Source: Paludibacter sp. (lineage in GTDB: Bacteria; Bacteroidota; Bacteroidia; Bacteroidales; Paludibacteraceae). Taken from it: DNA of 64,000 bases. Location: positions 1-64,000 of the forward strand of contig JAAFGX010000006.1 of assembly GCA_010365115.1 (NCBI GenBank), read 5' to 3'. Below, in pieces: positions 29,159-38,128 of the stretch. The first letter of the stretch is position 1. Every line of letters starts with the position of its first letter. Made by a program: the position numbers and the translations under genes. A model generated the notes under the pieces. It was given only the letters and a program-made list of their open reading frames with translations. It searched no databases and was not told the origin of the DNA.

Positions 29159-29764
29159 CTAGAACAATCTAATATCTTTATCTCCATGAACATCAAGTGA
29201 CTCTCTATTTTGGACAAGAATTCCTGCAGCTTGAGGATCTGTTTGATATAATTTATCAATATAATCAGAATGTAATTGAATCATTTGGTCAATGCTATCA
29301 CCAACAGTATTTCCTTCATATAATGACATTAGTCCTTTTGTTGCGCATTTACAGAATTCATCCAAGTATTCCATAACTACCCATGCAGAATCCTTATATC
29401 CCCAATAAGATCTTACACCATTTTTATAAAGTTCTAGACCTAAACTTACTGATGTCTTGCATGAAAAAGTATAAATAAATGCATTCTCAAAAATATCATG
29501 ATTAATGATTTCTGAAACATAATCTTCTTTTGTAGAAGAGTTATAGAGACATGTCTCGTCTCCATGTGAGTAAGCTATGAAAATTAAATCACCATTAAAT
29601 TTTGATACTTCGGTATTTATAAAACTGGAAGTCAATTCTTCTGTTTCAATATTTGAGTAATCTATTTTAGCCTTTATAGACATACTTCTAGTTTCATCAC
29701 CACACATCTGAAAAAATGAACTCAGATCATTTCCTTTATTATCAAAAGCTATAATTGTGTGCAT
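29159..29764 (-). CDS. CHAT/caspase-like cysteine peptidase
   Basis: The 201-aa protein has the clan CD dyad layout: a strand ending DLIFIAYSHG (His67) and a second ending AFIYTFSC (Cys102), with a GVRSYWGYKDSAW segment and a final NRESLDVHGDKDIRL like other CHAT ends. No signal peptide or membrane helix. CHAT/caspase-type peptidases serve as effectors in several bacterial defence systems. It is the last gene of a four-gene operon, 4 nt after the receiver gene. Its compact size and lack of fused sensor suggest control by the phosphorelay genes upstream. Activity is inferred; the residues are seen. Confidence 0.65.
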   Translation of the reverse strand: MHTIIAFDNKGNDLSSFFQMCGDETRSMSIKAKIDYSNIETEELTSSFINTEVSKFNGDLIFIAYSHGDETCLYNSSTKEDYVSEIINHDIFENAFIYTFSCKTSVSLGLELYKNGVRSYWGYKDSAWVVMEYLDEFCKCATKGLMSLYEGNTVGDSIDQMIQLHSDYIDKLYQTDPQAAGILVQNRESLDVHGDKDIRLF

Positions 29765-29768
29765 GAAT

Positions 29769-30389
29769 CTATTCGTTATCGAGTTGCTTTTTTTGTCTTG
29801 TCAATAAATCAATTGCTAATAAAAGGATATTTCTTTCCATTTTTTTTCCAAAGTCACTACTTTGTCTTATTTCTGATAAAACATCATATAAGGTATACGT
29901 TTCTCCTGTTGAAGTACTAAGATATGGTTTTTTGATTTCGCTGTCAGGCTTATTTAAAATCCATTCTTCCAACATACAATCAACTCTAACATCTAAACTA
30001 TGTATAGCTTTTTTGACTAATTTTACTTTTTCTTCAAGGGAAATCGTCTTATCTGCAAATGCCATCGCATCCTTGTTAATGTAAGTCATTAAATCCTTTT
30101 GAGGTATTGACTCAACCATTTTTGCAGTTACAATAATTATATAGACGAGGGAGGATTTTTCTCTGATTTTAGATAGTATTTCGGTACCATTCATTTCGCC
30201 TCTACCTAAATCGTAATCTAGAAGGACAATAATTTTACTGTTTAAATTATCTAAAACATAGTGCAAGCCTTCATTTGCTTTTCTTCTTAATATGATATCA
30301 GCATCTTTGAAGCTTAGTTTGAGATGTACAATAAGTGGAGATGACTCCAAGATATTATCATCAATAATTAGAATCTTTAATTTTCCCAT
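29769..30389 (-). CDS. CheY-like response regulator with C-terminal helical extension
   Basis: The 206-aa protein has a receiver domain (about 1-130) with acidic pocket Asp10/Asp11, phospho-acceptor Asp58 in IVLLDYDLG, Thr88 in IIVTAK and Lys106 in INKD. Residues 135-206 form an extra region with STGETYTLYDVLSEIRQSS and KKMERNILLLAIDLLTR, mostly helical. It is not a DNA-binding output domain of a known type, so the output may be protein-protein, possibly with the adjacent peptidase. It follows the kinase gene by 3 nt. Confidence 0.85.
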   Translation of the reverse strand: MGKLKILIIDDNILESSPLIVHLKLSFKDADIILRRKANEGLHYVLDNLNSKIIVLLDYDLGRGEMNGTEILSKIREKSSLVYIIIVTAKMVESIPQKDLMTYINKDAMAFADKTISLEEKVKLVKKAIHSLDVRVDCMLEEWILNKPDSEIKKPYLSTSTGETYTLYDVLSEIRQSSDFGKKMERNILLLAIDLLTRQKKQLDNE

Positions 30390-30392
30390 AAG

Positions 30393-32498
30393 TTATTTTT
30401 TAAATGGAAGTGTTATCTTAAATGTCGCACCAGTTGGAAGAAATTCATTTTCAATAACCTCAACTTTTCCTTTTAATGCTTCAATTCTTGTTTTTACTAT
30501 GTATAATCCAAGTCCCGATCCTCCTTGTTCTGCAGTTGAAGTGTGATAAAGTTCAAAAACTTTCTCTTTGTTTTCCTCTTCAATTCCTACACCATTATCA
30601 GAAAAGAATAATAAAAATTGATTATTTTCTATGTAACCCGAGCATTTGATTATTTTAATCTCATTACCCACAAGTGCCTTCACTGAGTTGTCAATCAAAT
30701 TTTGAAAAATGTCAGAAAAAAATTGTTTGTTAGCATTAATAATAAAATTGTCCTTTATTTCAATTATTGATTTTATCTTTTCATTTTCAAAACGAAGATT
30801 ATAATCATAAAATAATCCTTCAATTAGTTTTTTTACATCCAAGTCTTCAAAAGGGATATTAGACCCGGCATAACTTAACATATAGCTAATTACTTTATTA
30901 AGAGTCATCATGTCTTCGTATATCTCACGAGAATATAATTTGAAGAACTCTTCTAGGCTTGGATCTGGATAATATATTTTGAAAAATTCTGCTTTGTCTT
31001 TTATTCTACCTAGCGAAGTTCTAACAGCATGTGACATATTTGCAGCATAGTCTTGCAAAGACATAAGACTCAAATATATGTTTTCTTTTCTGAGAAATTC
31101 TTTCTCTGCTTTTTTTTGCTCTGCAATTCCTTTACTAACAGTGCTACTTACCTGTTTAGCCTGCTCTTTAAGAGGTTTTAATGGAGCTTCTAAAGCTGGA
31201 TTTTGTTTGGTAATTTCATCGATTGCCATTACAAACGAATTGACATCATTCTTTGCCAATTTTAATTCATCTGCAACAGTAGCTTTATTTTTGATCCTTT
31301 CGTATTTCTTTAACTCGGTAAAAACATCTAATTGTTCAATAATAAATTCTTTTAGTTGTTTATATTGATTATTTTCTACAAAGTCTTGTCTATTAGTAGC
31401 ATCAATTATATTAGGATTTCCATCTTTAGTAATCTCGACAATACCAATTATTTCTCTTGTACTTACTCTGTTAAATATATCTCGCCATAACCTTTTATCT
31501 ATTCCTAATATATCTCTTTTTTTATCTTGATGAGATTCAAATTCAGCAAATGGTGTCGTTATTATACCATCACGATAAATCTTTATTCCATCAATTCGAG
31601 TATCATCATTCTTAAATTTTGCTCTGTAAGCTCTTTTGGCAGCCTCATTAAAGAAATACATCTTCATATTTATACCACCAAAATTTTTTAATGGTATATT
31701 TTTAGTTTTCAAGATACCGTTATCTTTATCAAAATACAATGTTTCTTGTAACATTGAAGGAGCGTTAAATGAAATTGAAACGTTATGAGATGAAAATTGA
31801 ATAACATCTACAGAAACTAATTTTCTGGTATATGCATCATACTCATTTGATGAAATATAAATATCGAACGGTGGATTTAATGGATAGAATGGTGAAACAA
31901 TTTTAGTCAACTCCTTGTATAATCTTTCAATATCTCTAGTTGTCCAAATTTCTCTAATTTCAGAAATTTCAAGTATTGTTCCATGAAAGTTAACCGACGA
32001 ATTTTCATATGAATAAGTGTTTTCAATGTCTGTAAATAGAGTTAGTTGACCGTTATTGGATTTTGTATTATATAGCTCCCAATTTATTTCTACATTTAAA
32101 AGCTGAGAATTACCTTTCTGTTTTGTTTTAATATTGACTTTATCACCTAGCTTGTCTACAGCGAATCTTCCTATTCCTTTTTCTCCAACATATCGTCTGT
32201 TAAATGGAGCTTCTGAATATAAAGTATTTCTTTTGCTAGCGGTTCCAATAACCATCCATTTATCTCTAATATCAGAGAAAGCCATACCACATCCATTATC
32301 TCTAATAATTATTTTACTTTTAGGATTTATTGAACTAATATTCTCGAAGACTATATCTACACTTGTTGAGTTTGCATCATAACAATTTTTTACTAACTCG
32401 AAAAGAGCTGTTATTCTGTCAGTAATAAGATCTCGTCCTATTAATCTAAATGTACTGACATCGAATCTCCATTTTAATATATTAGATTCTTTATTCAT
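30393..32498 (-). CDS. dual-GHKL protein: MORC/Hsp90-like ATPase fused to a histidine kinase
   Basis: The 701-aa protein has two GHKL ATPase modules. The N-terminal one (about 15-150) has N-box ELVKNCYDA (Glu34, Asn38), IRDNGCGM (Asp67) and GEKGIGRFAVDKLG, followed by an S5-like transducer with GIKIYRDGI and DATNRQDFVEN, as in paraMORC/Hsp90-type proteins. A coiled-coil stretch (395-475) leads to a histidine-kinase core: H-box NMSHAVRTSLGRI (His490), N-box QNLIDNS (Asn600), SDNGVGI and GGSGLGLY. ATG 32498 overlaps the methyltransferase stop by 8 nt, indicating coupled translation; the longer frame to 32543 is rejected. No membrane helix: a soluble sensor. Confidence 0.85.
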   Translation of the reverse strand: MNKESNILKWRFDVSTFRLIGRDLITDRITALFELVKNCYDANSTSVDIVFENISSINPKSKIIIRDNGCGMAFSDIRDKWMVIGTASKRNTLYSEAPFNRRYVGEKGIGRFAVDKLGDKVNIKTKQKGNSQLLNVEINWELYNTKSNNGQLTLFTDIENTYSYENSSVNFHGTILEISEIREIWTTRDIERLYKELTKIVSPFYPLNPPFDIYISSNEYDAYTRKLVSVDVIQFSSHNVSISFNAPSMLQETLYFDKDNGILKTKNIPLKNFGGINMKMYFFNEAAKRAYRAKFKNDDTRIDGIKIYRDGIITTPFAEFESHQDKKRDILGIDKRLWRDIFNRVSTREIIGIVEITKDGNPNIIDATNRQDFVENNQYKQLKEFIIEQLDVFTELKKYERIKNKATVADELKLAKNDVNSFVMAIDEITKQNPALEAPLKPLKEQAKQVSSTVSKGIAEQKKAEKEFLRKENIYLSLMSLQDYAANMSHAVRTSLGRIKDKAEFFKIYYPDPSLEEFFKLYSREIYEDMMTLNKVISYMLSYAGSNIPFEDLDVKKLIEGLFYDYNLRFENEKIKSIIEIKDNFIINANKQFFSDIFQNLIDNSVKALVGNEIKIIKCSGYIENNQFLLFFSDNGVGIEEENKEKVFELYHTSTAEQGGSGLGLYIVKTRIEALKGKVEVIENEFLPTGATFKITLPFKK

Positions 32499-33567
32499 CC
32501 AAGTTTTGTATATGTATTTTAATGCTTTCGGCAATTGCCTCACCTAAACCAACAGGTACAGCGTTACCTATATGTCTTGCAATTTTTGCAGACGAAAAAG
32601 GTACATCTGGATTAATGAATTCATAGTTTTCAGGAAAAGATTGAAATATTGCAGCCTCTCTTAGTGAAATTGCTCTGTTTTGTTGAGGATGACCAAATCT
32701 TCCATTTCCTAATCCAATGCAATAGGTTGTCATAGTTGGAGAAACATCATCCCATTTCATTCTTCCATAAACACTTCCAAAAGACTTACCACCAATTTTC
32801 TTATGACATTCTAATAATAAAGATTCATCCCAATCCTTCCAACTGCCACCTTCTTTAGTTGCTTTAATCCTTTTCTCATTCAACTCACTTAATTTTCGAG
32901 CATAATGCAATCTGTCTATTTTGCTAATATCACCACCATTTATAGGTTCTAAATGTCCAATTGCTTTTCTAACAGTATTGTAGTTTGAGGTATTATGAGT
33001 TGGTTTAATTAGTTCAATTTCACCATGTTTTGATGCTAGTAATATTAATCGTTTACGGCGTTGAGGTACGCCATAGTCTTGTGCATTAACTATTTTGTGA
33101 CTTACTAAATATCCATTTCTCTCTAAATTTGAAACAAAATCATTAAATACCTGTCCGTTGTTGAATGATTTTAGTAATGGGACATTTTCCATTGAAACAA
33201 TCTCGGGTTGAGTTTCTTCAATGAGTCTTCCAAAAGAATATAGTAATTTCCACTTTTCATCTTTAGATTGTTCTTCTTTATTGTTGTTATTCTTATGATT
33301 ATATATTGAAAATGGTTGGCATGGAGCGCATCCAACAAGAATCTGCCTTTTCCCTTCTGGAAACAATCCTTTTAATTCTTTCATTTCTAAATTAACAATA
33401 TCCTTATAAATAAATTTTGAGTTATTGTTTTTTTCAAATGAATACTTACATGATTGATCAAAGTCAATACCTGCTGCAACATCAAATCCATTTTTAGTTA
33501 AACCATGTGTTAATCCTCCAATTCCACAGAATAAATCAACTACAGCAAAATCATTTATTGAAAGCAT
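32491..33567 (-). CDS. C5 cytosine-specific DNA methyltransferase
   Basis: The 358-aa protein has the ordered motifs of C5 MTases: I (DLFCGIGGLTHGL, residues 11-23), IV with catalytic Cys83 in GCAPCQPFS, VI ENV (Glu127), VIII QRRKRLIL, a target-recognition region in between, and IX/X (SLREAAIFQSFP, GNAVPVGLGEA). It methylates cytosine in a specific DNA site that cannot be read from sequence. No restriction endonuclease lies beside it; instead the operon continues with kinase, receiver and peptidase genes. It is the first gene, with a promoter at 33596-33626. Confidence 0.95.
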   Translation of the reverse strand: MLSINDFAVVDLFCGIGGLTHGLTKNGFDVAAGIDFDQSCKYSFEKNNNSKFIYKDIVNLEMKELKGLFPEGKRQILVGCAPCQPFSIYNHKNNNNKEEQSKDEKWKLLYSFGRLIEETQPEIVSMENVPLLKSFNNGQVFNDFVSNLERNGYLVSHKIVNAQDYGVPQRRKRLILLASKHGEIELIKPTHNTSNYNTVRKAIGHLEPINGGDISKIDRLHYARKLSELNEKRIKATKEGGSWKDWDESLLLECHKKIGGKSFGSVYGRMKWDDVSPTMTTYCIGLGNGRFGHPQQNRAISLREAAIFQSFPENYEFINPDVPFSSAKIARHIGNAVPVGLGEAIAESIKIHIQNLDE

Positions 33568-33595: not shown

Positions 33596-33626
33596 CAAAA
33601 GTACATATCTTATTCGATATATACAA
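33596..33626 (-). promoter_or_regulatory. promoter of the methyltransferase-kinase-receiver-peptidase operon
   Basis: Minus-strand TACTTTTG (33603 to 33596) matches the -7 consensus, with TTG at 33626-33624 about 20 bp upstream. The leader to the ATG at 33567 is about 25 nt. Confidence 0.6.
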
Positions 33627-34624: not shown

Positions 34625-36652
34625 TCATCCAAATATCTCTCTCAATTCCTTATTACTCAGTTTACCAATCCAATTTTCGCCCGTAGCCACGGTCATATCG
34701 GCAAGATGTTTCTTTTGTTGAATCATTTCGTCAATACGTTCTTCGAAAGTATTTTTGGTTATCATCCGATGCACCATCACGTTTTTCTTTTGCCCGATAC
34801 GATAAGCACGGTCGGTGGCTTGGTTTTCTACTGCCGGATTCCACCACAGATCGTAATGGATGACATGTGAAGCAGCTGTCAGGTTCAAGCCTGTTCCAGC
34901 TGCTTTGAGTGAGAGGATAAAGATTTTGTCGGCACGGTTGTGCTGGAAACGTTCCACCATTTCCTGTCGTTGCTTTACATTGCAACCACCATGATAAAAC
35001 ATAGGTCGTTCGCCATATCTTTCTGTGATAAATCGCTCTAACAAATCACCCATTTCGCGGAATTGTGTAAAAATCAATACCTTTTCACCACTGTCCATTA
35101 TGCTGTCCAAGAGTTCAAAAAGCAGTTCCATCTTCCCTGAAAGCGATGAGTCAAAATTGCCGTTTTTCAAGAAATTAGTTGGGTGATTACATATTTGCTT
35201 CAACGCCAATATCATTTGAAGCACTAATCCTTGGCGTTTAAACAATGAATTGGAATCGCTAAAGCCTTCAATTTCTTCCATAGCTGCCTTCATGGTTTTT
35301 TCGTACAATGCAGCTTGTTGTTTGGTGAGCAGGGCAAACTGGTTTTGCTCCACCTTATCAGGTAAATCGGAAATAATTGACTTGTCGGACTTCATACGAC
35401 GCATCATAAACGGCGACGTTACTTTGCGGAATTTAGCCACGGCCTGCTCGTCGTTGAATACTTGAATCGGATCAGCAAAATCGTCCTTGAAAGTCTTTAC
35501 ATTGCCCATGTAACCCTTGTTGGCAAAGTCCATAATCGACCAGAATTCTGTCAATCGGTTTTCCACTGGCGTACCACTCATAGCAATGCGAATATTAGCT
35601 GGAATACTTTTAATGGCTTTTGCCTGTGCTGTGTCGTGATTCTTAATATTTTGGGCTTCATCAATAATCATCACCTGCCATTTATGCTTTTTTAGCAACT
35701 CGGTATCACTGCGCAAAACACCATAGGTTGTCAGCATAACATCAGCATTAAACAGTTTAATATTACGTGTAGTGCCGTGAAAAATATGCGACGAAACAGA
35801 AGGTGCAAACTTCTGAATCTCCGATTGCCAGTTGGTAAGCAAACCCGTAGGCACTACCACCAGCGCTTTGTGTTTGTCGTTAATGGCATTTTCTTCTTTG
35901 AATTTGAGCAAGATAGAAATCACTTGCAGCGTCTTTCCCAATCCCATATCGTCGGCAAGTATGCTTCCAAAGCCAATGCGACTGTTGCGGTACATCCACG
36001 AGAAACCACGATGTTGGTACGGTCGAAGTTGTGCATTCAAGCCTTCTGGTAGCGGTATATCTGTTGTTGAAGTAAGTTCGGCAATTAAATCCCGCACCTC
36101 GTTAGTAAGCAAAACGGGCGCACCATCGTACTCTTCCGACAATGCTGTTTGCAACATTTGGTACGAATTCAACGGTTTTTCGGTACTAAAATGCTTGTGC
36201 AGCTTTTCTAATTCCTGCTCACTCACATAGATATAATTTTCTTTGAAACGGAACAAACCGGAAGCATTTTTCATCAACTTTTTAAACTCCTCAGGGCTAA
36301 TGAGTGTGTCACCAATAGCCACTTGCCAATCGAACGATAACAAATCGTCTAAACGCACAAAACCTTGTCCTGCCTGACGTTTCAACTTTACAGACGCTTT
36401 GGGACGAAGAAGTTCCTGAAGCGATTTAGGAAGCAGGATTTTTATATCCAACAACCGTACAGCCGGCAATACTTCCATCAGAAAAGGAGAAAAATCTTTG
36501 ATATCGAAACGTATGGGATGATTTCCGCCCAAGTTAATATGCGTATCCAATCCGCGTATGAAAGGCGACAACAACGATAGGGATTGTAATATTTTGTAAC
36601 GTTGCTTGTCGAATTGTTTTTCTTTCAGAATTTTGGAAATGGAAATAGGCAA
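34625..36652 (-). CDS. SNF2-family helicase, C-terminal part of a split SWIM-SNF2 gene
   Basis: The 675-residue frame encodes a bacterial SNF2-associated region (about 1-190) and a full SNF2 ATPase: Walker A LADDMGLGKTL, Walker B variant IIDEAQNIK, SGTPVENRLTEFWSIMDF, and C-terminal helicase lobe with FTQFREMG and QATDRAYRIGQ. It begins at a TTG (36652) and there is no ATG until about residue 59. The frame is the same as that of the upstream SWIM frame, separated by one TAA at 36686-36688, so it was probably one protein. Expression as a separate protein is uncertain. Confidence 0.8.
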   Translation of the reverse strand: MPISISKILKEKQFDKQRYKILQSLSLLSPFIRGLDTHINLGGNHPIRFDIKDFSPFLMEVLPAVRLLDIKILLPKSLQELLRPKASVKLKRQAGQGFVRLDDLLSFDWQVAIGDTLISPEEFKKLMKNASGLFRFKENYIYVSEQELEKLHKHFSTEKPLNSYQMLQTALSEEYDGAPVLLTNEVRDLIAELTSTTDIPLPEGLNAQLRPYQHRGFSWMYRNSRIGFGSILADDMGLGKTLQVISILLKFKEENAINDKHKALVVVPTGLLTNWQSEIQKFAPSVSSHIFHGTTRNIKLFNADVMLTTYGVLRSDTELLKKHKWQVMIIDEAQNIKNHDTAQAKAIKSIPANIRIAMSGTPVENRLTEFWSIMDFANKGYMGNVKTFKDDFADPIQVFNDEQAVAKFRKVTSPFMMRRMKSDKSIISDLPDKVEQNQFALLTKQQAALYEKTMKAAMEEIEGFSDSNSLFKRQGLVLQMILALKQICNHPTNFLKNGNFDSSLSGKMELLFELLDSIMDSGEKVLIFTQFREMGDLLERFITERYGERPMFYHGGCNVKQRQEMVERFQHNRADKIFILSLKAAGTGLNLTAASHVIHYDLWWNPAVENQATDRAYRIGQKKNVMVHRMITKNTFEERIDEMIQQKKHLADMTVATGENWIGKLSNKELREIFG

Positions 36653-36685
36653 TTGTTCTGGATTAGAGGTATCTTCAATGCTAAC

Positions 36686-38128
36686 TTACACATCAAATTC
36701 CTGATGATCAAGTTCGGTTACAGTGATTACTGGTTTGAAGTTTTCTGTTGTCAGATGATACCTGTCCAACCAAACCTTCATGCCACCACTTAACGCATTT
36801 TCACCAACACCACTGAACGGGTAAGATTTGTTTTTAAAGAAAATATCCTCGAATAAATCACCATTGCTCGGTCGTGATAAATGCTTTACGAAACTGGAAA
36901 TAAAAATAGATAGCAATTCGGAGCATTGATTTTCGAGCGGCGATAGTCGTTCTACTTTCCGTATTATTTTAGGAGAAAGGAGTAATTCGGGCGGAAGAAT
37001 TTTCTCTAATTTCCCAACTAACAGGCGCACATTGGTATCAATCATAGCTGGTAACCACCGCACCAGATACTCTTTATTGGCAAGCTGAACAATCTGTGGA
37101 ACCACATTGCCATTGGCTACCAAGTGTAACGAAGCATAAAGCAGCTTATGTATAGCAGCTACCGACGGTTGATAGTCGAGTAAACGGTCGGGGTTTAGCT
37201 GAAAAATAGCAGGAATAAGCTCTTCAATTCGCTTTATCGAATGATTCTCTCCTCCCACTTCAAATGCATTATTCGTATTAACGGAAATGGATACTGTTGT
37301 GTGGGAATTTATCTCAATAGACTTAGACTTAGTAGGAAAAACAACATCGAAACTCATTTTTTTGCTGATTAACCGTTTGGCCTCTTTGGCATTCCGTAAG
37401 AATTGCAAAGCAAATTTCTCACGAAAATTTCCATTGGAATAAAACGGCGGTGCATCGGGCAGTAACTGAACCAACGGTTCAGCTATGTGTTGAAGTTGAG
37501 AGAAATCGACCCTCTCGTATGCACTTTCTTCATTGAATTCAACTGTTCCAACTTTAGCTTCTTTTAGCAGACTTTCAAGCGTGGGAATCTCAGTTTTCTT
37601 TTGGTCGGCAATAAAAATTCCTCTCTTTTTCAATTCATCCAGCAAGTTCACTTTATGAATTTCAAAGACAAGGAAGGGATTATTATCGATTTCACGGCTC
37701 ACCATATATATAACCGCTGCCAAATGCTTACAAGGCACTGCCCAATCGGGACAAGAGCATTGCATCTTGAAATCAGTCCATTGGCGTGGAAAAACCTTTA
37801 ATCCAGCAGTTTCGGCAATGGTGAGTATTGCAGGATCAAGTTCGCGGTTCAATAACTTTGAAATCAATGCCGGACGCTCAATAATTCCTTTCATCAGTAC
37901 TTCCACCTGTTCTTCGAAAAACGGTGGAACAATCAAATTCACTTTGTATGGCGAAGGACGGCTGCCCGCCACTTTAGCTAGAATCTGGTTTTCTTTGATT
38001 TTAACTTCTTTCACATGACCGCTCCGTGCATAGGAAGCACCTCGGGGCAATCGATTATCATAATCTACATTTTCCAACGAACGCAACCAATGTTCGCCCC
38101 ACCATGTTTTTCCAAATTGAGAAGCCAT
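36686..38128 (-). CDS. SWIM zinc-finger protein, N-terminal part of a split SWIM-SNF2 gene
   Basis: The 480-aa frame starts MASQFGKTWWGEHWL and has the SWIM CxCx6CxH finger (Cys124, Cys126, Cys133, His135) followed by SNF2-associated helical sequence ending TELDHQEFDV. After the TAA the frame continues VSIEDTSNPEQLPISISKI into the helicase without a shift. SWIM-SNF2 proteins of this class are usually a single chain of about 1,100-1,200 residues, which is what readthrough would give (1,166). DNA-binding and remodelling role inferred from family. Confidence 0.82.
   Translation of the reverse strand: MASQFGKTWWGEHWLRSLENVDYDNRLPRGASYARSGHVKEVKIKENQILAKVAGSRPSPYKVNLIVPPFFEEQVEVLMKGIIERPALISKLLNRELDPAILTIAETAGLKVFPRQWTDFKMQCSCPDWAVPCKHLAAVIYMVSREIDNNPFLVFEIHKVNLLDELKKRGIFIADQKKTEIPTLESLLKEAKVGTVEFNEESAYERVDFSQLQHIAEPLVQLLPDAPPFYSNGNFREKFALQFLRNAKEAKRLISKKMSFDVVFPTKSKSIEINSHTTVSISVNTNNAFEVGGENHSIKRIEELIPAIFQLNPDRLLDYQPSVAAIHKLLYASLHLVANGNVVPQIVQLANKEYLVRWLPAMIDTNVRLLVGKLEKILPPELLLSPKIIRKVERLSPLENQCSELLSIFISSFVKHLSRPSNGDLFEDIFFKNKSYPFSGVGENALSGGMKVWLDRYHLTTENFKPVITVTELDHQEFDV

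Follow-up and report, generated by a model that had tools for sequence, protein, structure and literature searches.

Do four closely spaced genes of Paludibacter sp. act as one conflict system, in which DNA methylation, two-component signalling and proteolysis are joined? The genes lie on the minus strand at positions 29,159 to 33,567 of a stretch of 64,000 nucleotides (contig JAAFGX010000006.1 of assembly GCA_010365115.1, positions 1 to 64,000), hereafter the window. They encode a C5 methyltransferase (32491..33567, 358 aa, the first gene of the operon), a dual-GHKL sensor kinase (30393..32498, 701 aa from the ATG at 32498), a response regulator (29769..30389, 206 aa) and a cysteine peptidase of predicted caspase/gingipain/CHAT fold, the putative effector (29159..29764, 201 aa). 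An original prediction, made from the DNA alone, had described this set as a candidate new defence system with a true phosphorelay and no nuclease. We propose that the genes form a mobile cassette of the defence type: cytosine methylation would label the host DNA as self, and a soluble two-component relay would arm the caspase-fold protease. We give this reading a probability of roughly 55%.

The four open reading frames (ORFs) and their spacing were confirmed. The methyltransferase and kinase genes overlap by 8 nt when the kinase starts at its ATG, and the next two gene pairs are separated by 3 and 4 nt. A longer kinase ORF (30393-32543, minus strand, 716 aa) starts at GTG 32543; relatives align from approximately ATG 32498. 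Kinase residues are numbered below by the 716-aa form. All active-site residues named in the prediction are present at the codon level: the kinase phospho-acceptor His505, given there as His490 (CAT, 31029..31031), the receiver phospho-acceptor Asp58 (GAT, 30216..30218), and the catalytic His67 (CAT, 29564..29566) and Cys102 (TGC, 29459..29461) of the peptidase, all on the minus strand.

The recurrence of the set was analysed through the kinase. A three-sequence alignment was compared with one genome per species (84,980 species), loci (L numbers below) being chosen on the kinase and not on its neighbours. The search yielded 96 confirmed relatives. The best 80 of these 96 were examined, and methyltransferase, regulator and peptidase profiles were run over all ORFs of the 80 loci. 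Methyltransferase, kinase, regulator and peptidase genes follow each other in the same order and on one strand in 78 of the 80, which excludes chance adjacency. In the two incomplete loci the contig begins (L019) or ends (L094) inside the kinase gene. In 57 of 78 loci the regulator ORF runs into the peptidase ORF, with an overlap of 1, 4 or 8 nt. The host genomes, as labelled, are mostly Bacteroidota, with one Spirochaetes and one Kapabacteria assembly.

Searches with the other proteins led back to the same loci. The peptidase profile had matches in 3 of 395 genomes of the class (the window's own included), all within the operon or its sensor-swapped form described below; one of the matched contigs (in G1000) looks the same as that of L026. 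The regulator profile found seven full-length members in 6 of 393 genomes of the order (own included); these too all belong to the operon or its sensor-swapped form, with the peptidase as the next gene. The remaining matches had E-values of 7e-19 or worse and mostly ended near the end of the receiver, one reaching position 179. Searched as a single sequence, the regulator matched one of 395 genomes of the phylum, that of the window itself; the family profile extended further. Among 295 genomes of the order, the kinase was found at seven places in six genomes; two are this operon and two are the sensor-swapped form in one genome (G129). Separately, L134 (3736-6251) encodes a 530-aa protein with a relative of the receiver at its N-terminus (E 7.3e-19), next to a 308-aa gene; this pair is perhaps another output for the same relay.

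The methyltransferase matches Pfam DNA_methylase (2.6e-67) and TIGR00675 (7.3e-49). The motifs PCQ, ENV, Q(x)RxxR and GNAVP, which we take to be those of the family, are all intact, and P82 C83 Q84, E127 N128 V129, Q169 and N335 are kept in 80 of 80 operons.

The kinase starts with a MORC/MutL/Hsp90-like ATPase domain (residues 27-160; 32064..32465, minus strand). Residues 45-154 match HATPase_c_3 above the cut-off (1.9e-20), and E49, N53, D82, G84 and G86 are kept in 80 of 81 operons; in L070 the ORF begins later. L070 is possibly a broken copy, its kinase frame being apparently interrupted near the N-terminus (L070:1326-1602). Residues 27-241 match the profile of the BbrUII/HgiDII restriction enzymes (1.2e-22; 80 bits against a cut-off of 550), and the match spans positions 5-209 of 659, that is, only the first third of the profile. 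The middle region (residues 161-404; 31332..32063, minus strand), with a mean pairwise identity of 46.6% among 79 operons, is a candidate S5-like transducer by the layout of MutL/MORC proteins. Thus the GHKL ATPase part of the predicted N-terminal half stands, and the S5 domain is a tentative assignment, based on the N-terminal BbrUII/HgiDII match, weak MutL/MORC hits in the ATPase part and the layout. The dimerization and catalytic domains of a histidine kinase follow (residues 495-716; 30396..31061, minus strand): residues 608-715 match HATPase_c above the cut-off (1.6e-22), and the C-terminal part matches solved histidine kinases (best 2.3e-11). His505, N619 and D649 are found in 80 of 81 operons; in L094 the gene is truncated by the contig end. 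Judging from these matches, the kinase is the ATPase module of a BbrUII/HgiDII-type enzyme with the remainder replaced by a histidine kinase.

The regulator consists of a receiver (residues 1-136) and an output domain (residues 137-206; 29772..29981, minus strand). It matches Response_reg at 5.3e-6, below the Pfam cut-off. Asp58 and Asp11 are present in 80 of 80 operons, as is T/S88. The 70-aa output domain belongs to no convincing Pfam family in the eight members scanned, and the matches of a fold search reach little past residue 136. The operon encodes no third relay protein. Transfer of phosphate from the kinase to this receiver is likely, given the conserved residues on both sides.

The peptidase of the window has no Pfam match at E<=1. 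Its predicted structure is a caspase/gingipain/CHAT fold. In clan CD peptidases, the His-Gly pair and the Cys each directly follow a core strand. In the model, core strands 60-65 and 95-100 lie just ahead of His67-Gly68 and Cys102 respectively, the former being the third strand. His67 and Gly68 are present in 80 of 80 operons and Cys102 in 79 of 80, in a family that averages 28% identity; the exception, L045, has an ORF of just 95 aa. This ORF (L045:9707-9994), whose stop lies 59 nt from the contig end, possibly belongs to a broken copy. In a single-sequence search the peptidase matched gingipain R (E 0.0023). The best stretch of the alignment, with residues 23-123, is off the catalytic residues, and a second, 3.4-bit stretch puts His67 and Cys102 on gingipain residues 211 and 244, presumably the catalytic ones. 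A profile of the peptidase alignment had no significant match among solved structures (best E 0.065, lectins). As the searches of solved structures gave no firm match at the catalytic site, the evidence for the fold rests on the model. The CHAT-like peptidase of the original prediction is accordingly retained as a predicted clan CD fold with a conserved His/Cys pair. What we regard as firm is the four-gene set, which recurs, with its conserved active sites, and the fold modelled for the peptidase.

The link between the regulator and the peptidase is supported by natural chimeras. In 101 pairs of operons, kinase identity is 75% or more; the peptidase falls more than 20 points below the kinase in 40 of these pairs, and the methyltransferase does so in none. 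We screened 77 operons (without L045 and without L077, which is identical to L044) for cases where the nearest peptidase and the nearest kinase are in different loci by at least 12 points, a margin of our own choice. Eight operons are discordant. The C-terminal domain of the regulator sides with the peptidase in all eight, and the receiver sides with the kinase in seven; the exception, L091, is practically a tie (70 vs 71). Since several of the cases are reciprocal, they represent some four or five events.

The clearest pair is L040 and L051, with identities of 97% in the methyltransferase, 46% in the catalytic half of the kinase, 34% in the receiver, 91% in the output domain and 99% in the peptidase. 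Blockwise, the identity of the two regulators is 13-67% within the receiver; it is 40% in the last block ahead of residue 138 and reaches 100% at that residue and beyond. At the DNA level, 98.6% identity begins within about two codons of the same point. The two loci look like one shared cassette with nearly identical ends, in which the middle 2.2 kb (most of the kinase and the receiver) is a diverged allele. A peptidase tree built by a quick method without L045 rejects the kinase clades L057, L058, L059, L070 (p 2e-49), window, L018, L019, L020 (5.5e-6) and L076, L096 (0.007), the clades for this approximately unbiased (AU) test having been picked after the identities were known. L025/L026, another candidate for a peptidase swap, was rejected, because their common descent is compatible with the AU test (p 0.507). 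The chimeras are suggestive of a relay in which the kinase would act on the receiver and the output domain on the peptidase. The receiver-to-peptidase step of the original prediction is borne out to this extent: a coupling of regulator and peptidase is supported by the exchange of the output domain together with the peptidase, and release of the peptidase would be the way in which the coupling works.

The same data bear on an alternative, in which the relay would regulate the expression or activity of the methyltransferase or of restriction functions, and the peptidase would turn over relay or methylase proteins. Regulation of this type was suggested by the authors of PMC8011034 for the HEF_HK systems described there, and the genes of the operon overlap. 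However, a restriction gene is lacking in the core, and the output domain is co-inherited with the peptidase and not with the methyltransferase (partial rank correlations 0.33 vs 0.05, calculated without L045 and L022). We consider this alternative very improbable.

The defence cassette that we prefer could work as follows. The methyltransferase, clear as to family, would modify the host genome. The N-terminal MORC/MutL-like ATPase of the kinase would bind unmodified or otherwise foreign DNA, or notice that modification has been lost; enzymes of the BbrUII/HgiDII type presumably use this module in a like manner. The C-terminal half would then autophosphorylate at His505 and pass the phosphate to Asp58 of the receiver. 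The phosphorylated regulator would release or activate the peptidase via its output domain, the step to which the chimeras speak. Finally, the peptidase may cut one or more proteins of the cell or the phage, stopping growth or killing the infected cell. Both the sensing of foreign or unmodified DNA and the defensive, probably abortive, outcome are what we infer from the parts.

Several observations weigh against this scheme. In HisKA kinases an acidic residue follows the phosphorylated His. At the position after His505, all 80 kinases here have A, I, M, V or L and none has an acidic residue, and the canonical Lys of the receiver, Lys114, is kept in 40 of the 80 and replaced by R in 23; for both reasons the chemistry of the relay may be unusual. 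Of the claim of a true phosphorelay, the main residues are thus conserved and the receiver Lys is not. No clan CD family, Pfam CHAT (PF12770) included, is among the 17 families matched at E<=0.1 by any of the 53 peptidases scanned (of 80 available, window included). The preference of the output domain for the peptidase is weak, the correlation of the receiver with the peptidase being 0.22 (bootstrap support 0.86 for the difference from 0.33). The position of the joint alone is no proof of function, because breakpoints may sit in conserved sequence (E141, W143) and the parts adjoin. The methyltransferases of L040 and L051 are 97% identical and the sensor halves of their kinases 55%, so it is not apparent that the sensor strictly reads the methylated site. 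In an exploratory scan along the sensor (without L045, L077 and L070), the target region of the methyltransferase was tracked weakly, with partial correlations of at most 0.27; no clear peak was seen, and a sequence-reading region in the sensor was rejected. Three of the seven kinase places in the order (L012, L014, L015; 26-32% identity) lack the peptidase and have a different output or none seen. Finally, the neighbours of the cassettes, considered next, include housekeeping genes, and their counts stand without a control set.

The neighbours were scanned with Pfam, taking one complete gene of at least 110 aa on each side of the 78 loci (69 downstream, 71 upstream). The downstream genes include, among the matches listed, 10 C5 methyltransferases, four Vsr, four HNH_2, two integrases and one AbiH. 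The upstream genes include, among the matches listed, up to five with the same AAA families, two AIPR, two C5 methyltransferases, two integrases and one YhcG nuclease. None of the four operon proteins belongs to a nuclease family of Pfam. The predicted absence of a nuclease hence holds for the core operon and fails for some of its surroundings, HNH_2 or Vsr being the first complete downstream ORF in 4 + 4 of 69 loci. By eye, an HNH-type gene directly 3' of the peptidase gene was assigned to L043, L067, L076 and L096; a protease and a nuclease may therefore be combined in some cassettes.

The operon has a GC content of 30.1%, compared with 36-38% in its flanks, and homology drops just beyond the operon borders in most of the compared pairs. 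A single-sequence search with the peptidase found no match in the 47 other genomes of the genus. The two genes flanking the operon are themselves scattered (8 and 7 of 48 genomes, both together solely in the genome of the window), so the genus offers no clean empty site. A phage-borne system was rejected: the kinase has 27 weak relatives in viral contigs, at 19-34% identity with one 45-residue stretch at 40%, and phage records gave 21 weak matches. On plasmids, the regulator had no match, and the matches at E<=1e-40 were two Stenotrophomonas kinases (28.5%).

This distribution bears on the possibility of ordinary regulation, in which the relay would control a protease processing a host regulator, methylation would be a bystander or an epigenetic input, and there would be no conflict system. 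Response regulators usually regulate, no substrate is evident in the operon, and some of the loci lie among housekeeping genes. On the other hand, the presence is patchy (2 of 100 relatives and 6 of 393 genomes of the order, own included), the GC content is low, the surroundings vary and the effector is exchanged. We therefore regard ordinary regulation as improbable and retain the mobile defence cassette.

A candidate single promoter of the operon was read from the sequence at 33596..33626 (minus strand), about 30 nt 5' of the methyltransferase ATG; it consists of TTG, 20 nt and TACTTTTG, and we take it to be of the Bacteroidetes type. Outside the operon, the window contains a SWIM/SNF2-like helicase gene (by eye; 34625-38128, minus strand), which is split by an in-frame TAA at 36686-36688. 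In seven more genomes of the genus, and in a second copy carried by the window's own genome, its first part lies in one uninterrupted frame of 1146-1189 aa.

The sensor can also be exchanged. In L011 (4061-8850), the kinase core, regulator and peptidase of the cassette are combined with an N-terminal ATPase of the Sacsin type (PF25794, 2e-15). A search of the 11 kb read of L011 revealed no C5 methyltransferase, and one was found in 79 of the 79 loci that have a MORC-type sensor and upstream room. Hence the methyltransferase seems to be tied to the MORC-type sensor and not to the peptidase, with one locus as a thin basis. A second copy in the G129 genome (L013:363-5318) contains the end of a kinase, a regulator, a short peptidase ORF of 131 aa and a large methyltransferase-like gene (NPPY, by eye).

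One possibility on which L011 bears is selfish addiction: the relay would watch the methylation of the host itself, loss of the cassette or inhibition of the methyltransferase would make the sensor fire and the protease kill the cell, and phage defence would be secondary. This would use the same parts as the defence cassette, including the methyltransferase seen with all 79 MORC-type sensors that have room for it; the cassette is mobile and patchy; and restriction-modification systems can act in this way (PMC8011034). However, an arms race accounts more readily for the replacement of the output domain together with the peptidase, as addiction needs no change of effector, and L011, with its exchanged sensor, lacks a C5 methyltransferase in the region read. 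We find addiction unlikely and prefer the defensive reading.

A broader and more tentative proposal, to which we give slightly less than even odds, is that the cassette represents a new class of immune pathway, with methylation as the licence, a MORC-type ATPase-histidine kinase as the sensor, a His-Asp relay and a caspase-fold executioner. The regulator would serve as an adapter, its receiver belonging to the kinase and its output domain to the peptidase, and would be re-paired by recombination at the joint between them. The natural chimeras point to this joint as the place for testing the signal path, and the His and Asp of the relay and the His and Cys of the peptidase offer clean loss-of-function controls. 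The regulator and the peptidase have no match at E<=1 in PADLOC-DB (2023).

Among the known systems, type II restriction-modification systems of the BbrUII/HgiDII type share the N-terminal ATPase module with the window kinase and also have a C5 methyltransferase partner. However, the window kinase ends in a histidine kinase, and the operon has no cognate restriction endonuclease. The radiation of paraMORC ATPases in restriction systems is described in PMC2292703.

The closest published systems are those of Bellieny-Rabelo et al. 2021 (PMC8011034), where soluble kinases composed of HATPase_c_3, HEF_HK and HATPase_c, derived from paraMORC ATPases, adjoin Response_reg_2, C5 methyltransferase, Vsr and HNH genes. 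The window kinase has the same layout of HATPase_c_3 and HATPase_c, and a C5 methyltransferase and a regulator adjoin it. The cassette is a real and unusually tidy system; the novelty of joining a relay with a paraMORC-type ATPase and a C5 methylase was overstated in the original prediction, as the HEF_HK/Response_reg_2 proteins were already published. However, the words caspase, peptidase, protease, C14, CHAT and gingipain have no occurrences in the main text of PMC8011034. The window proteins fall outside these two families: the kinase has no match to HEF_HK (PF19191) at E<=1 and no acidic residue after His505, and the regulator has no match to Response_reg_2 (PF19192) at E<=1. Of the 46 regulators scanned (out of 80 available, window included), one matches that family at E<=0.1, with E 0.028. 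The regulator query of that study has 600 aa, compared with 206 aa here. For this methylase-linked kinase/regulator family, apparently published without a demonstrated output (PMC8011034), the peptidase branch offers a testable one. Searches of open-access full texts brought up no recognised description of the four-gene combination, the subscription literature being mostly beyond that scope.

Among the distant kinase relatives, L012 (1006-9094) has a C5 methyltransferase, two further genes, a kinase with a sub-threshold HEF_HK match (0.0037), a receiver and HNH_2; its two extra genes look like NurA and HerA by eye. A related kinase/receiver system in L014 (5150-8760) has an HNH endonuclease as the next gene. 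With a nuclease in L012 and a peptidase in the window, related systems seem to differ in their output.

In Detocs, the effector domain is fused to the response regulator. These phage defence systems also use a histidine kinase and a response regulator, with a buffer protein, DtcB, and an ATP-cleaving PNP effector in the best-described case (PMC11249213, PMC11728103). The methyltransferase, the MORC-type sensor and the separate protease belong to the window operon and are unmentioned for Detocs in the parts of these papers used here. Conversely, neither a DtcB-like buffer nor an effector domain in the regulator was found in the window operon.

Caspase-fold effectors of immunity have other triggers. 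These effectors, which include SAVED-CHAT, Borvo CHAT and the caspase-like effector of TIR signalling, are fired by target RNA or nucleotide messengers, whereas the proposed trigger of the window peptidase is a phosphorylated regulator. Craspase (gRAMP-TPR-CHAT) is fired by target RNA (PMC9729208), and CHAT effectors are covered in PMC10952713. A histidine kinase is absent from the effectors surveyed in PMC7159879, as far as its consulted sections go. A GHKL-nuclease fusion, VcSduA, stops phage (PMC12137116). The CapK-CapS and VapKSC systems resemble the cassette in having a DNA-responsive GHKL kinase: CapK responds to single-stranded DNA, a response to DNA is proposed for VapK, and transfer of the phosphate either lifts the repression of an immune operon or sets a toxin free (PMC13373217). 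However, these kinases phosphorylate a serine of a STAS protein, with no His-Asp relay, and a methyltransferase and a protease are not mentioned in the portions of PMC13373217 used here. If our reading is correct, the cassette joins self-marking in the style of restriction-modification, two-component signalling and caspase-type killing, previously found separately, and a methylation mismatch is converted first to a phosphate signal and from there to proteolysis, in place of the cutting of foreign DNA.

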